A stretch of 8,219 nt of DNA, taken from positions 1 through 8,219 of the forward strand of contig JAJRTK010000541.1 in the NCBI GenBank assembly GCA_024278345.1. The letters run 5' to 3'. Position 1 is the first letter of the stretch, and each line of letters opens with the position of its first letter. The position numbers were made by a program, and so were the translations under genes. Of the stretch, positions 489-6,918 are shown one piece after another. The notes below the pieces were generated by a model. The model saw only the letters and a list, made by a program, of their open reading frames with translations, was not told where the DNA came from and made no database searches. The stretch is from a bacterium (GTDB taxonomy: Bacteria > CSSED10-310 > JAJRTK01).

Positions 489-1844
489 ATGCGTAGAAGG
501 TCCTTGAAGCGGAGTCGTGGCGTCAAACCCAGGCCGCCTGACTATCCGGAGCCCTACAAGTTTAGGCATTTGCCTGTTTTGTCTCGCTCCGAACTCGAAG
601 CGATCCAGAATCTTTATCTTTATTTGCCTCCGACCTTTCTTGAACGGGCCCTCCTTGACGAGTTGTCCGAGGCGTTGAGTCAACTTCTTGGCGGTCGGGT
701 TTTTATCCGGGTCCATTCCGTGGAGCACTTGAAGTTTGGTGAGTGGCGCAGCAAGCTGCCTGATACCGGTAGCAGCGCGATTTTCCGGCTTTTGCCTCAC
801 CAGTCAGCGGTGGCTCTCCATCTCGATCACGCTCTCGTGGGTTATCTCCTGGGGCGGTTGACTGGTGCAGGCGGCGCGTCCCCGGCGGATCTTCGCCCGC
901 TGAGCGCAGTGGAAAAAGGGGTCATGGAGTTTGTGCTTTTGCACGCCTTGGCTGTGGTGGAGGAGGGCTTTGGCCACATGGCGCAGGTCAAGCCCCGGTT
1001 GGAGAGATTCGAGGATGGTGCTCACGGTCTCTATGACGTGGCATTGGACGAAGATCGGGTGGTGGTCATCAACATGGAGTTTGTCTTGGCTTCCGTGGAG
1101 CGTGGTGGTGGAGCACCGTCGCTGACTTTCTTGGATGGCCCGACACCGGGCGGAGTGATAGAACTTGGGGAAGGCGTGTTCGATCTCGCGGTGGGTCGTG
1201 GGGAGAAGGCTCCGCTTCGCATTCCGCATCGCTCTCTTTCTCGTGAGCATGCCCGCTTGAGGAGGGAAGGTGATCGGACGGAGCTCATGGATCTTCAGAG
1301 TCGCAACAAGACGTTGGTCAATGGGCAAGAGCTGGTTCCGCACCAGCCAGTTGTGCTGGCGAATGGCGATCTCCTGAAGTTTGGAGCGGTGTCGCTTCAG
1401 TACAGCGACCCGGAGAGTGAGATCATCGTGGAAGAGCAAAAGGATTTTCTGAGTCTCTGCGTTCCCTATCCTTTCGTGAATGAGGTCTTGATTGCCCCGT
1501 ACCAGGGGCAGGGCCTGACGCCTGTGGAGCGGGCCTATTACCTTGATCGGGCGAGGCGATTAGGAGGGGCATGGCAAACCTCGGTTCGAGCAGAGATCGG
1601 GCATATCACCTTTTCTGCCGCCGAGCTGGAAAGCGTCGAAGAGGGGGATGTACTTCTCATTGAGGAGCCAAAGGCGGAAAGACTGCCTGACGGATCGTAT
1701 CGTGGGGAGGTTTTGGTGCGAGTGGGGCGTGGAGAGGCCTTTGTCTTTCAAGGGACCATCGTCTCTGGAGACGAAGTCTTGGCGATTCAGTTGATGGACT
1801 ACGCGATACAGGAGGCACTGACGAATGTCGTCGAACGGATATGA
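489..1844 (+). CDS. sctQ: SctQ/FliM-like C-ring protein with an inserted FHA domain
   Basis: A 451-residue probable sorting-platform (C-ring) protein acting in the cytosol under the export apparatus. Residues 1-17 are very basic. Residues ~25-215 resemble the FliM/SctQ middle domain (LHLDHALVGYLLGRLTG, then a helix VEKGVMEFVLLHALAVVEEG). Residues ~229-306 are an FHA domain with the classical pThr-binding set visible: G236-R237, S251-R252-x-H254, N273, N278-G279, G293-D294. The FliM-like fold then resumes at ~319 (FLSLCVPYPFVNEVLIAPY), and residues ~360-440 form a SPOA domain. So the FHA looks inserted inside the middle domain, not added at an end. GGGAG at 477-481 sits 7 bases before the ATG. 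It overlaps the next SPOA gene by 20 bases. FHA readers bind phosphothreonine; no kinase is in the window. Family assignment is firm; the exact insertion boundaries are estimates. Confidence 0.85.
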   Translation: MRRRSLKRSRGVKPRPPDYPEPYKFRHLPVLSRSELEAIQNLYLYLPPTFLERALLDELSEALSQLLGGRVFIRVHSVEHLKFGEWRSKLPDTGSSAIFRLLPHQSAVALHLDHALVGYLLGRLTGAGGASPADLRPLSAVEKGVMEFVLLHALAVVEEGFGHMAQVKPRLERFEDGAHGLYDVALDEDRVVVINMEFVLASVERGGGAPSLTFLDGPTPGGVIELGEGVFDLAVGRGEKAPLRIPHRSLSREHARLRREGDRTELMDLQSRNKTLVNGQELVPHQPVVLANGDLLKFGAVSLQYSDPESEIIVEEQKDFLSLCVPYPFVNEVLIAPYQGQGLTPVERAYYLDRARRLGGAWQTSVRAEIGHITFSAAELESVEEGDVLLIEEPKAERLPDGSYRGEVLVRVGRGEAFVFQGTIVSGDEVLAIQLMDYAIQEALTNVVERI

Positions 1845-2103
1845 CCATGGTTATGATGACCAGGAGATCGATCAGCAGGAAGGGATGCTCGATGATATCG
1901 CGATCCGAGTCTCGGTAGAGATCGGTGAACGCTCCATGTCGGTTAACCAGATCAGCCACCTCCGAGTGGGGCAGACGATCGAACTCAACCGGGGGCCTTC
2001 CGAGCTGGTCCATTTGCGAGCGGGAGGTGATCTCATTGCTCAAGGCGAATTAGTGAACATCGAAGGAGAGCTTGGAGTGAGGATTCTCAAGTTTCTGAGG
2101 TAG
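1825..2103 (+). CDS. Small SPOA-domain protein (FliN / short SctQ type)
   Basis: A 92-residue protein whose C-terminal ~68 residues form a SPOA domain: AIRVSVEIGERSMSVNQISH, then LRVGQTIELN, a glycine turn, and GELVNIEGELGVRILKFL. SPOA proteins pair with each other to build the C-ring, so this is the likely partner of the larger SctQ encoded just before. Residues 1-22 are acidic, Tyr/Gln-rich and probably flexible. The start is well fixed: a perfect AGGAGG at 1810-1815 lies 9 bases before the ATG. The gene starts inside sctQ in a different frame, a 20-base overlap that suggests coupled translation. In several systems the short SctQ comes from an internal start in the same frame; here it is a separate gene, as with flagellar FliM and FliN. 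Confidence 0.85.
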   Translation: MSSNGYDHGYDDQEIDQQEGMLDDIAIRVSVEIGERSMSVNQISHLRVGQTIELNRGPSELVHLRAGGDLIAQGELVNIEGELGVRILKFLR

Positions 2104-2120
2104 TGGGGCGGATCCGTAGG

Positions 2121-2720
2121 ATGAGACGGTTTGTTTTTTTTGCGAGCTTGTTGTTGATCCTCTGTTTGGGGGAAGCAACCGCAGAAGTCCAGTGGCATGA
2201 CCTTCCCCAGGCTTTAAGCTCTTCCAATACCGTGGAGGGCCATCGTGAAGAAGGGCGTTTGGTGGAGAGGGAGAGTAGGTTAGTGCAGAATCTGGGGGCC
2301 GCTCGAACCGCGGAAGAGGTTGCCTGGGACCTGGGCAAGACGTTGGCTGCGTTGGTTCTGGTTTGTGGCTTGCTCTATGTAAGCCTTAGATTTGGCTTGA
2401 GCCGTCTGGTTCGAGGGAGCGGAACCGGCATTGAGAGGTTTCGGGTCATTGACAAGTTTGGTCTGGAACCAAAAAGAGTACTCTACATTGTTGAGGTTTG
2501 TGGTCGTAGAATCCTATTGTCTTCCAGTGAAGCGGGAATTCGGTTCCTTGTGACATTGGATGGCGCGCCGTTTTCCAAGGAAGAACATCGTTCTCGCGGC
2601 GCGGGGGCCTTTCGCTCATTTGGTGATGTACTACGCGAGAAGCTCGATAGACCGGCGATGGAGCCCCCGGCGCCGGGGGCTGGTCTGTCACCGGCGGGAG
2701 CTGGCCAAGGGGAAGAGTGA
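2121..2720 (+). CDS. fliO: FliO-like membrane protein
   Basis: A 199-residue protein with a Sec-type signal peptide (residues 1-21: MRR, a hydrophobic core, then EATA), a polar periplasmic stretch (22-72), one membrane helix (75-93, LAALVLVCGLLYVSLRFGL) and a cytosolic FliO domain (~104-147, RFRVIDKFGLEPKRVLYIVE followed by CGRRILL). The last ~45 residues are Pro/Gly/Ala-rich. FliO helps assemble the FliP complex in flagella and is normally missing from non-flagellar T3SS. Its place immediately before sctR matches the flagellar fliO-fliP order. Start choice: ATG at 2121 gives an ideal signal peptide; a GTG at 2103, overlapping the previous stop, would add six residues and cannot be excluded. 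The stop overlaps the sctR start by one base. The family call rests on domain pattern and position. Confidence 0.75.
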   Translation: MRRFVFFASLLLILCLGEATAEVQWHDLPQALSSSNTVEGHREEGRLVERESRLVQNLGAARTAEEVAWDLGKTLAALVLVCGLLYVSLRFGLSRLVRGSGTGIERFRVIDKFGLEPKRVLYIVEVCGRRILLSSSEAGIRFLVTLDGAPFSKEEHRSRGAGAFRSFGDVLREKLDRPAMEPPAPGAGLSPAGAGQGEE

Positions 2721-3499
2721 TGAAGCAAGGGACGCGGTTTCTTCTGGTGACTTTGGGGTTTGCCTTCTTGACGCTGGCATTGGGGGAATCTGCGTTTGCT
2801 CAGGCCGGGGGCTCGGAGTCCGTCACGGTCAATCGGCCGATTCTCTTGATGATGGTGCTAGCGGGTATGAGCCTTGCGCCTTTCATTGGGTTGATGGTGA
2901 CGTCGTTCGTCAAGATTTCAGTGGTGCTTTCCATGGTGCGGAGGGCATTGGGCACGCAGCAGATTCCGCCGAACCAAGTCGTGACTGGGTTGGCGATGAT
3001 CTTGACCATATACATTATGATGCCGGTGGCACTGGAAATTCAGACAGAAGTCAAGAATGTGGTGACCAAAGGTGTCGCGCCGGGCGAAGACCTTTTGAGC
3101 AAGCCGTCGTTGGACAACTTGGTTGAGGCTTTCGATGCGGGTAAGGAGCCGCTTCGGCGGTTTCTGGAGCGGCATAGCCACAAGAAAGATCGGAGCCTCT
3201 TCTTCAAATTGGCACGGAAGATGAGGAAACCCAAGGACCGGGGAGGCATTGGTCCGTCTGATTTTACGGTGCTCATGCCAGCATTTGTCATCAGCGAGCT
3301 TCGGGAGGCATTCGAGATAGGATTTGTGATTTACGTCCCTTTCACCGTCGTGGACATGGTGACAGCGAACATCCTTCAAGCTCTTGGAATGATGCAGCTT
3401 TCTCCCGTGATCATCTCGTTGCCGTTCAAGATACTCCTATTTGTTATGATCGACGGGTGGTTCCTCATCGCCCGGGGCCTGGTCTTAAGCTATCTTTAG
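2720..3499 (+). CDS. sctR: SctR, export-gate membrane protein (FliP family)
   Basis: Core subunit (259 residues) of the SctR5-SctS4-SctT1 export gate in the inner membrane. Hallmarks are VKISVVLSMVRRALGTQQIP at ~64-83, a cytosolic/periplasmic loop ~105-178, and the conserved end LMPAFVISELREAFEIGF, then ALGMMQLSPVIISLPFKILL and DGW. The LSP and ALGTQQIPPN variants favour the non-flagellar family over FliP. Unusually for SctR, residues 1-27 form a signal peptide ending AFA before Gln28, as in flagellar FliP, which makes the protein ~40 residues longer than typical SctR. AAGGGG at 2707-2712 lies 7 bases before ATG 2720; a GTG directly upstream (2717) is less likely. The start overlaps the fliO stop (TGATG), indicating coupling. 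Confidence 0.95.
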   Translation: MKQGTRFLLVTLGFAFLTLALGESAFAQAGGSESVTVNRPILLMMVLAGMSLAPFIGLMVTSFVKISVVLSMVRRALGTQQIPPNQVVTGLAMILTIYIMMPVALEIQTEVKNVVTKGVAPGEDLLSKPSLDNLVEAFDAGKEPLRRFLERHSHKKDRSLFFKLARKMRKPKDRGGIGPSDFTVLMPAFVISELREAFEIGFVIYVPFTVVDMVTANILQALGMMQLSPVIISLPFKILLFVMIDGWFLIARGLVLSYL

Positions 3500-3512: not shown

Positions 3513-3779
3513 ATGATGGAGCAGTTGGCTATTCGGGTGACGCGGGAGGCGATTTTCTACGTGCTGGCTTTTTCCGCCCCTCCGCTCATTTTGGCGATGG
3601 TTTTGGGGTTGTCCATCGCCTTGGTTTCCGCGGTGACTCAGGTGCAGGAGCAGACATTGACGGCGGTGCCAAAGATGTTCTCGGTCTTCATCGTGTTGGC
3701 AGTGATGGCGAACTGGATGATGGCGTCCTTGGTGAAGTGGACCACCCAGCTTTTCGCATTGATTCCTGTTTATTTTTAG
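3513..3779 (+). CDS. sctS: SctS, export-gate membrane protein (FliQ family)
   Basis: An 88-residue protein of standard family length with two membrane helices (~15-37 and ~51-71) joined by the conserved VSAVTQVQEQTLTAVPKM loop. SctS wraps around the SctR/SctT core of the export gate. GGAGGG at 3500-3505, directly after the sctR stop, lies 7 bases before the first ATG (a second ATG follows at once). The gap to sctR is 13 bases, so they are almost certainly co-transcribed. After its stop comes an unusual 138-base non-coding gap. Confidence 0.95.
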   Translation: MMEQLAIRVTREAIFYVLAFSAPPLILAMVLGLSIALVSAVTQVQEQTLTAVPKMFSVFIVLAVMANWMMASLVKWTTQLFALIPVYF

Positions 3780-3917: not shown

Positions 3918-4733
3918 TTGGACGAACTTTTCAATAAGATCCTCGGCGTAGACGTCAATCTGCAGGAGACCATCCAGCTCTATGCGTTGCTTTTAGCCCG
4001 GATCACGCCAACGCTTTTTCAGACGCCTTTTCTTGGCGGGAACCTGGTACAAGGGACGGCCAAGATCGGGATTTCGATGGTGCTGGTCTTTTTTTTCTAC
4101 CCGCTTGTCTATTCCACCGTTGATCCACCACTCCCTCCTGAGTTTGGACTCTACATCCTTTTACTCTTGAAGGAGTTTTTTATCGGTTTCGTTCTCGGTT
4201 TCCTCGCTTCGCTTCCCTTCTATTACGTGACGGCGGCGGGGAACAACATGGACATGGCTCGTGGTGCTTCCATGGGGATGATGCAGAATCCCGGAGTCAG
4301 CGAGCAAGTGACCTTCCTTTCGAACTTCATGTACTGGTTCATGATCTTCTTGTTTCTGGCTTCTGGCGGCCACCGAGTTTACATTCGGGGTTTGGCGCAG
4401 ACGTTCATCATCGTGCCGCCTACGGGGTGGCTTGAGTTTGGTGTCGGTTTTACTCCGTTCGTGGAACGGGTCGTGCGGCTGACAGCCGACACGTTTGTTG
4501 TGATGTTGCAGCTAGGAGCTCCCGTGCTTATCGTGATGTTCGTGACCGACGTGGTGTTTGGGCTCTTTAATCGCATCGCGTCCCAGATGCAGGTGGGGGA
4601 GATGTCGATGATCTTGAAGCTGCTTTTGGGACTCTGGATCTTCTTTCTGAGTATCCCGGTGCTGGTGCGGGTGATGTACCAGTTGCTCGATGGGATGCTC
4701 GACAACATTGTCGGGATCTTGTCGCTTGTCTAG
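3918..4733 (+). CDS. sctT: SctT, export-gate membrane protein (FliR family)
   Basis: A 271-residue multi-pass inner-membrane protein of normal family length. It is the single SctT/FliR subunit that closes the export gate with SctR and SctS. Visible features are the N-terminal LYALLLARITPTLFQTPFLG, hydrophobic helices at ~50-67, ~76-102, ~136-150 and ~195-215, the SGGHRVYIRGLAQTF segment after the third, and the conserved end QVGEMSMILKLLLGLWIFFL. The start is TTG at 3918: GAGGGAG at 3905-3911 lies 6 bases before it, the family N-terminus aligns there, and no ATG or GTG in frame exists between the upstream stop and this codon. The rare start plus the upstream gap may lower SctT output, which would fit its single copy per gate; that is inference. 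Confidence 0.93.
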   Translation: MDELFNKILGVDVNLQETIQLYALLLARITPTLFQTPFLGGNLVQGTAKIGISMVLVFFFYPLVYSTVDPPLPPEFGLYILLLLKEFFIGFVLGFLASLPFYYVTAAGNNMDMARGASMGMMQNPGVSEQVTFLSNFMYWFMIFLFLASGGHRVYIRGLAQTFIIVPPTGWLEFGVGFTPFVERVVRLTADTFVVMLQLGAPVLIVMFVTDVVFGLFNRIASQMQVGEMSMILKLLLGLWIFFLSIPVLVRVMYQLLDGMLDNIVGILSLV

Positions 4734-4736: not shown

Positions 4737-4744
4737 CGTTGACG

Positions 4745-5821
4745 GTGGGTGAAAAAAGCGAGGAAGCCACTCCACACAAACTGGAAGAGGCGAAAAAAAA
4801 AGGGCAGATGGCCAAGAGCAAAGATCTGCCGTCGGCCGTACTGATGATTGTGGGGTTTTCGCTTCTGTTGGCCCAGTCCTCGAAAATTGGCATTGAGCTC
4901 CGAGATTTCGGGCTCGAGATGATGCAGGCTACACAGGTCTTTAGCCGCATCGATATGACGCCTGCCATTGTCTTGGACCTCTTCAGTCGCTCCATTTGGC
5001 TGATGATGGGACTTTGTGCGCCGATTCTCTTCGGAGTCATGGCGGTGGCGCTGATCATTAACGTGATCTTAGTGGGTCCGCTTTTTACGACCCATCCACT
5101 CAAGCCCGAGCTGAAGAAGCTCAACCCGTTGCCAGCCATCAAGAATTGGTTCAAGGCCAAGAGCCTGGTGATGTTTGCCATGAACGTTCTCAAGGTTGCC
5201 GTCGCCGGCTACCTGTCTTACAATATCGTCCAGCGCAGCATCTCCCAGGTTCTGAACAGCATGGATCTCGGGATGTGGGAAATCATGGTGCTGTGCGGGA
5301 CGATCATCAAGGACATCATCATCCAGGTCGGCTTTTTCTTCCTCATCATGGGAGTCATCGACTTCGGATACCAGAAAAAGGCGTTCGCGAAGGAGATGAA
5401 AATGTCGAAAGACGAGGTCAAGCGGGAACACAAACAAAACGAGGGTGACCCCGAGATCAAGGCACAGCGGCAAGCTTTGGCCCATGAAATGCTCGAGGAG
5501 TGCATGGTACAGAACGTTCAGACAGCCGATGCGGTGGTGACGAATCCCACTCACATTGCTTGTGCGATTAAGTTCGATGAAAAGGCAATGGATGCGCCGC
5601 AGCTCATGGCCAAGGGAATGCGTCAGACCGCGGAACGGATTGTCAAGATTGCAAAAAAGCATAACGTGCCGATTTTGAGAAACATTTCATTGGCTCGAGC
5701 GCTATCAGAGTTGCAGCTCGGGGACTCGATTCCCGAATCGCTCTACGATGCCGTGGCAGAGGTCCTGAACTTCGTGTATGAGTTGAATTCAGGGCGCAGT
5801 CCCAAGTCCCCGGGAGGCTAA
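4745..5821 (+). CDS. sctU: SctU, autocleaving substrate-switch protein (FlhB family)
   Basis: A 358-residue inner-membrane protein that switches the T3SS from early substrates (needle, rod) to later ones. The N-terminus (GEKSEEATPHKLEEAKKKGQ) is typical. Four membrane segments lie at ~29-44, ~75-110, ~139-163 and ~175-207. The linker SKDEVKREHKQNEGDPEIKA (~221-240) is conserved. The autocleavage site NPTH is intact at residues 267-270 (codons from 5543), followed by the usual cytosolic domain ending around FVYELN. Cleavage occurs between N and P by cyclisation of Asn. The gene starts 11 bases after sctT with a GTG codon and is the last gene of the tight cluster; a ~300-base intergenic region follows. 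I see no clear terminator directly after it. Confidence 0.95.
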   Translation: MGEKSEEATPHKLEEAKKKGQMAKSKDLPSAVLMIVGFSLLLAQSSKIGIELRDFGLEMMQATQVFSRIDMTPAIVLDLFSRSIWLMMGLCAPILFGVMAVALIINVILVGPLFTTHPLKPELKKLNPLPAIKNWFKAKSLVMFAMNVLKVAVAGYLSYNIVQRSISQVLNSMDLGMWEIMVLCGTIIKDIIIQVGFFFLIMGVIDFGYQKKAFAKEMKMSKDEVKREHKQNEGDPEIKAQRQALAHEMLEECMVQNVQTADAVVTNPTHIACAIKFDEKAMDAPQLMAKGMRQTAERIVKIAKKHNVPILRNISLARALSELQLGDSIPESLYDAVAEVLNFVYELNSGRSPKSPGG

Positions 5822-6680: not shown

Positions 6681-6705
6681 GCATCCAATAGGATTGGAGA
6701 AAAAA

Positions 6706-6918
6706 ATGGCTAACACGATCGCTGGAGCGCAACCCAAAGTTAGTAACCCTTTGGCGAATCAGCAGGCTGGGGCAGCTACCCAGGACTTCAAGAACCAGAT
6801 GGACATGCTCAAGGTTCAGCAGTATCAGAACAGGTTGAGCCAGACGACGGGAGCGCTTTCGGCCATGTCCAAGCGGGCCCATGACACCATGATGAGCATC
6901 ATCAGAAATCTGGCCTAG
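6706..6918 (+). CDS. sctF: Probable T3SS needle subunit (SctF-like)
   Basis: A 70-residue protein without signal peptide or cysteine, with a flexible Ala/Gln/Asn-rich N-terminus (1-25) and a long helix (~26-70). The helix pattern YQNRLSQTTGALSAMSKRAH followed by IIRNL resembles needle proteins such as PrgI/MxiH, which have YQSKLSEY and end near IIQNF. Length is slightly below the usual 80-85. GGAG at 6696-6699 lies 6 bases before ATG 6706; an in-frame TTG at 6694 overlaps that ribosome site and is unlikely. It has its own promoter candidate and a strong terminator, so a short abundant mRNA is expected. Alternatives are an inner-rod (SctI) protein or a co-chaperone. The call rests on pattern, size and context. 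Confidence 0.65.
   Translation: MANTIAGAQPKVSNPLANQQAGAATQDFKNQMDMLKVQQYQNRLSQTTGALSAMSKRAHDTMMSIIRNLA

Follow-up and report, generated by a model that had tools for sequence, protein, structure and literature searches.

An FHA domain within the FliM-like middle domain of SctQ from an uncultured bacterium

Described systems and the locus of this study

In classical injectisomes, the FHA domain of SctD contacts SctK, which in turn holds SctQ, SctL, and SctN (PMC12603124). The phosphothreonine (pThr) residues of the SctD FHA domain are poorly conserved, and they are dispensable in PrgH (PMC3635987). The SctQ protein analyzed here resembles the SctD/MxiG/PrgH/CdsD type in placing a cytoplasmic FHA fold at the T3SS base; however, SctD is a separate membrane protein with poorly conserved pThr residues, whereas the FHA domain of SctQ is predicted to be soluble with an intact pocket. 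A literature search for FHA domains in SctQ or FliM found only papers on SctD; UniProt and InterPro, which may list such an architecture without comment, lay outside this search. In DgcB from Bdellovibrio, phosphothreonine is met by R61, K72, and R76, and the consensus residues of the cleft are S75, R76, and T96 (PMC6733907). The DgcB FHA domain is located N-terminally of a GGDEF enzyme and reads DgcB's own tail, whereas the FHA domain studied here lies inside SctQ.

The system of Myxococcus is a needleless T3SS* used in predation (PMC12075869), and Abby and Rocha described the Myxo systems as devoid of secretin, needle, and FliG (PMC3459982). The locus of this study is similar to T3SS* in its related SctR to SctU and SctN proteins (SctR up to 62% identical; trees), in that no T3SS-type secretin was found, and in a FliG-like gene between sctJ and sctL. 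It differs in the FHA domain, which the completely read SctQ proteins of Myxococcota lack.

The window, i.e., the whole stretch of DNA analyzed (8,219 nucleotides), is the entire contig JAJRTK010000541.1 of a metagenome-assembled genome of an uncultured bacterium (G000 in locus labels; 6.06 Mb in 550 contigs, 88% complete). Its features are listed in Table 1. Contig C251 of the same genome carries, in operon order, genes for a sigma factor, an SctI-like protein, SctJ, a FliG-like protein (FliG_C, E 3.5e-15), SctL, SctN, SctO, and an SctP/FliK-like protein. The end of C251 (L079 1-203) and positions 83-203 of the window have 121 identical bases, consistent with neighboring contigs that would be joined at this common stretch, or with a repeat. 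No match to the T3SS secretin model TIGR02516 over its cut-off was obtained in the phylum, with the window's genome being 88% complete.

Table 1. Positions of the features of the window, with the evidence for each assignment
Feature	Position	Strand	Basis
sctQ: FliM middle domain with inserted FHA, then SPOA1 (451 aa)	489..1844	+	Pfam FliM, FHA, weak FliMN_C; Foldseek/VIA match to FliM
FliM middle domain, part before insertion (aa 34-205), last strand 190-205	588..1103	+	AF2 secondary structure; VIA model ranges 33-38 to 336-343
Inserted segment (aa 208-309) in place of a tight hairpin turn	1110..1415	+	Alignment to 29 FHA-less relatives
Predicted FHA beta sandwich (aa 211-306)	1119..1406	+	AF2 block pLDDT 75-92; Foldseek 6hc1 TMt 0.88, rmsd 1.4
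Predicted pThr pocket residues R237, R248, S251, R252, (H254), R272, N273	1197..1307	+	Aligned to DgcB R61, K72, S75, R76, T96
FliM middle domain, part after insertion (strand 311-326, helix 327-340)	1419..1511	+	AF2 secondary structure; VIA
SPOA1-like domain (aa about 350-440)	1536..1808	+	Weak Pfam; VIA matches to HrcQb, YscQ-C, SpaO SPOA
Separate SPOA2/FliN-like gene, 92 aa (HrcQB-type split)	1825..2103	+	Pfam FliMN_C E 6e-19
FliO-like gene	2103..2720	+	Pfam FliO E 1e-8
sctR	2717..3499	+	NCBIfam TIGR01102 221 bits, over cut-off
sctS	3513..3779	+	Profile search
sctT	3918..4733	+	Profile search
sctU	4739..5821	+	Profile search
Possible needle-like protein	6694..6918	+	Pfam T3SS_needle_F E 0.003, under cut-off

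Genes for FliG-like proteins (FliG_C/FliG_M) between sctJ and sctL were observed on C251 (L079:4867-5880), in loci L118, L085, L155, and L089, and in many Myxococcota loci. Such genes, in this locus as well as in myxobacterial ones, conflict with the reported absence of FliG from Myxo systems. A common C-terminal needle-like motif (about RHDxxxxxxRNxK) was seen in small proteins encoded in the window (6694-6918), at L079:9939-10448 and 11540-11953, and in L077 and L078; three of these proteins are encoded by the genome of the window, whereas related systems have been termed needleless.

Other FHA proteins were encountered at or away from T3SS genes. In Myxococcota T3SS* loci (L082:18403-19482, L084, L103, L107, L115, and L130), a gene adjoining sctV encodes a protein that combines two FHA domains, a linker that is acidic or proline-rich, and a C-terminal transmembrane helix; this protein is a candidate SctD stand-in. 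The same tail-anchored layout, with a TAG between the two FHA domains, was found in the window's genome (L174:9584-11119, contig C154), away from the T3SS and near a PP2C-like phosphatase gene and a kinase-like gene. An SctD-like layout, in which a pair of FHA domains is combined with a single transmembrane helix and with TPR repeats at the C-terminus, is encoded upstream of sctR at L102:2438-4507, and a gene for an FHA-sigma54 activator adjoins the T3SS locus at L123:14966-16378.

The FHA domain of SctQ and its position

The product of ORF 489-1844 is SctQ, a FliM-like C-ring protein whose SPOA2 domain is split off as in HrcQA/HrcQB. The 451-amino acid protein matched the Pfam FliM family (PF02154) at residues 58-198 with 54.6 bits (E 1.7e-14) and, weakly, FliN/SPOA at residues 365-398; the gene order on the window is sctQ-R-S-T-U, as expected for an SctQ/FliM C-ring protein. 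Both SPOA domains are present, SPOA1 within sctQ and SPOA2 in the separate gene at 1825-2103, and SPOA1 matched SPOA structures with VIA Z scores of 4-5.8. The NCBIfam SpaO_YscQ equivalog, a model that expects one gene with a cut-off of 100.8 bits, gave 22.6 and 87.9 bits for the two split halves. A displaced SctD was ruled out as the identity of the ORF because the protein has no transmembrane stretch; in SctD, a transmembrane helix and a periplasmic domain come after the FHA domain.

The FHA family (PF00498) was detected at residues 235-299 of SctQ with 61.8 bits (cut-off 20.7, E 8.8e-17). In the full-length AF2 model, computed from an alignment of 30 sequences, the pLDDT of the FHA region was mostly in the 40s to 60s, a low confidence explained by the lack of FHA relatives in that alignment. 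The domain was folded alone in a separate AF2 run with 25 FHA relatives, and the three best Foldseek matches of this model were all Bdellovibrio DgcB entries (6hc0, 6hc1, and 6hbz). DgcB was also the closest FHA domain of solved structure by sequence (E 1e-11); the two share SRxH and an unusual N-K-T after the conserved serine. DgcB is an established binder of phosphopeptide, and the model superimposes on 6hc1, its phosphopeptide complex, with an rmsd of 1.4. The alignment places R237 at DgcB R61, R248 at K72, S251 at S75, R252 at R76, and R272 at T96, and the conserved G-R, S-x-x-H, and N of the pThr site are present. Judged from profile, alignment, and predicted fold, the domain is confirmed as a real and complete FHA domain with a putative pThr pocket of the type crystallized with a phosphopeptide.

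Several statements of the preliminary description, which had been made from the sequence alone, were borne out by these analyses. The residues that it named as binding motifs (G236-R237, S251-R252-x-H254, N273, and N278-G279) are all present in SctQ, the profile search recovered FHA and FliM over the protein (with the SPOA match being weak in Pfam), and the FHA region was predicted as a beta sandwich with a TMt of 0.88 to 6hc1. Its boundaries of residues ~229-306 hold in part: a complete FHA domain lies there, but the start was set too late, with strands beginning at ~211 and the insert spanning about 208-309.

In the nearest FHA-less relatives, the last hairpin of the FliM middle domain has a turn of a few residues, whereas SctQ of the window has about 100 residues in its place. 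In an unguided MAFFT alignment of the protein with 29 relatives, the FHA domain was cleanly set off as an insert in all rows. When the FHA domain was cut out, BLAST gave one unbroken alignment across the junction (best relative E 1e-18), whereas with the FHA domain kept, the matches ended at the junction or were split in two. In the full-length model, strands 190-205 and 311-326 flank the insert, with a block pLDDT of mostly 81-91, and VIA-align superimposed residues 38-336 on the FliM middle domain (4fq0, chain B) with Z 21.6 and an rmsd of 2.2, with all 182 residues aligned. The predicted fold thereby shows an intact FliM core around the FHA domain. As in FliM and other SctQ proteins, a full middle domain of the FliG-binding type is followed by SPOA; the difference is the domain insert in the last hairpin. 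By alignment and model alike, the FHA domain occupies the turn that links the final two strands of the FliM middle domain and not a domain boundary. Since BLAST, MAFFT, AF2, and VIA recover a single FliM domain from both flanks, the earlier statements that FliM/SctQ-like sequence lies on both sides and that the FHA domain is embedded in the middle domain proved correct.

FHA domains in SctQ of other lineages

Named genomes with sctR provided 80 loci, 73 of which had a SPOA gene upstream (some partial). Among these 73, SctQ contained an FHA domain in eight Acidobacteriota-type loci (one labeled Microvirga and cut by a contig end) and in L110 from Schekmanbacteria. Where the gene start was present, the domain spanned residues about 72-169; it was found in none of the Myxococcota, Eisenbacteria, and split-SctQ loci of the set. 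A wider search added four Acidobacteriota SctQ proteins with the FHA domain at 83-176. Three other genomes of the window's phylum (G006, G002, and G003) encode SctQ with the FHA domain on the N-terminal side, before the first FliM strand, and the SctQ proteins of L110 and G006:C227 are identical. None of 41 SctQ proteins of the split-SctQ phylum had an FHA domain (30 checked with the FHA profile); their complete frames of 303-376 amino acids are too short for one. Relatives of the window's SctQ were not found in plasmids or viral contigs. The T3SS genes of L148 (labeled Comamonas) and L156 (labeled Microvirga) group with those of Myxococcus and Acidobacteriota, and these records are likely mislabeled or contaminated assemblies.

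The combination of FHA and SctQ is not unique to the window, since it recurs in other lineages. The Acidobacteriota and Schekmanbacteria proteins likewise have the FHA domain inside SctQ with mostly retained pocket residues, but their site precedes the first FliM strand; the hairpin site was found in the window only among all SctQ surveyed. A survey of homologues for the insertion, as proposed initially, therefore confirmed the recurrence of the domain but not of its position. The GR, S, H, and N residues are retained in 4/4 SctQ FHA domains of the phylum, and the pocket is whole in G006, G002, G003, and most Acidobacteriota. In two Bryobacterales proteins, pocket residues are lost (S to N and N to L); thus, phospho-reading would not be kept by every FHA domain of SctQ.

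In a tree of five concatenated proteins (SctN, R, S, T, and U), the window was placed beside G006 (SH-aLRT 99) on long branches, and four changes of the FHA label were required. A tree of SctR only had placed the window with the split-SctQ clade and was dropped, as the five-protein tree puts it with G006. A single clade of all FHA carriers was rejected (p-AU 2.3e-6), indicating more than one event of gain, loss, or relocation of the domain; these sequences do not distinguish gain from loss. The window's FHA domain scored 50 bits to non-SctQ FHA domains, several of which are closer to it than the SctQ FHA domain of G006 (36 bits). This weakly favors a separate insertion, the domain comprising only 100 residues. 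Alternatively, the domain may be derived from an ancestral one located before the first FliM strand, of which a copy was moved, in line with the grouping with G006, whose FHA domain is at that other site. Relocation is possible, but the odds are against it given the bit scores, in which short domains resolve poorly.

Possible role of the FHA domain

The FHA domain of SctQ is predicted to read phosphothreonine at the sorting platform, an interpretation to which we assign a probability of about 0.5. SctQ is the C-ring (sorting-platform) subunit of a secretin-less, flagellum-like T3SS related to T3SS* of Myxococcus, and in this lineage its FliM middle domain received an FHA domain at the turn of the last beta hairpin. 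This FHA domain would read phosphothreonine on a partner, for which the candidates are a further protein of the sorting platform or ring, a chaperone or substrate complex, and a kinase of the membrane; with an active Ser/Thr kinase, SctQ assemblies would be docked or retained via the FHA domain. We infer phosphopeptide binding, partner, kinase, and the effect on export from these comparisons, which suggest that protein kinases may act directly on this secretion machine. For Ser/Thr kinases, 129 matching stretches, some sharing a protein, were counted in the window's genome and correspond to roughly 100 kinases; 34 FHA matches were also obtained. A nearby Ser/Thr kinase gene, which the preliminary description proposed to look for among homologues, was not found on the T3SS contigs (the window and C251), and the kinase genes lie elsewhere in the genome. 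Export may be regulated by phosphorylation, as the preliminary description proposed.

The main rival holds that the FHA domain is a phosphorylation-independent docking module that fulfills, inside SctQ, the role of the SctD FHA domain in attaching the platform to the membrane ring. Such docking through SctK is what SctD does (PMC12603124) with poorly conserved pThr residues that PrgH can dispense with (PMC3635987), and the Bryobacterales proteins have lost some pocket residues. Also in its favor, no SctD profile match was obtained in the four T3SS-bearing genomes of the phylum, but a divergent SctD could have gone unseen. The whole pThr pocket in the window, unlike that of SctD, and likewise in G006, G002, G003, and most Acidobacteriota argues against this rival, and we regard phosphate-free docking as rather unlikely. 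A tolerated, functionally neutral insertion at a permissive turn would fit the variable length of hairpin turns and the presence of an FHA domain at this exact site in only one of the genomes surveyed, but it is improbable in view of the intact pocket residues and the repeated association of FHA with SctQ. An assembly chimera of two genes, conceivable in a metagenome assembly of 550 contigs, was considered and rejected as highly improbable, because the frame is unbroken, the insert keeps the frame and falls exactly on a structural turn, both halves of one FliM domain are present around it, and its G+C content (0.60) is close to that of the flanks (0.57 and 0.55).

As a tentative extension of phosphothreonine reading, FHA domains may have been recruited to SctQ of secretin-less T3SS on two or more occasions and at different sites; pThr signaling by Ser/Thr kinases would then directly control how the sorting platform is assembled or loaded, in place of the docking by SctD in classical injectisomes. 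The two insertion sites point to the turns at which the FliM domain tolerates or favors an added domain, which bears on ring packing. As pThr binding by T3SS FHA domains has been disputed for SctD (PMC3635987), the intact pocket of the SctQ FHA domain makes it well suited to test this question. If the domain reads phosphothreonine, a kinase could switch the secretion machine via its cytoplasmic ring and not via gene expression.
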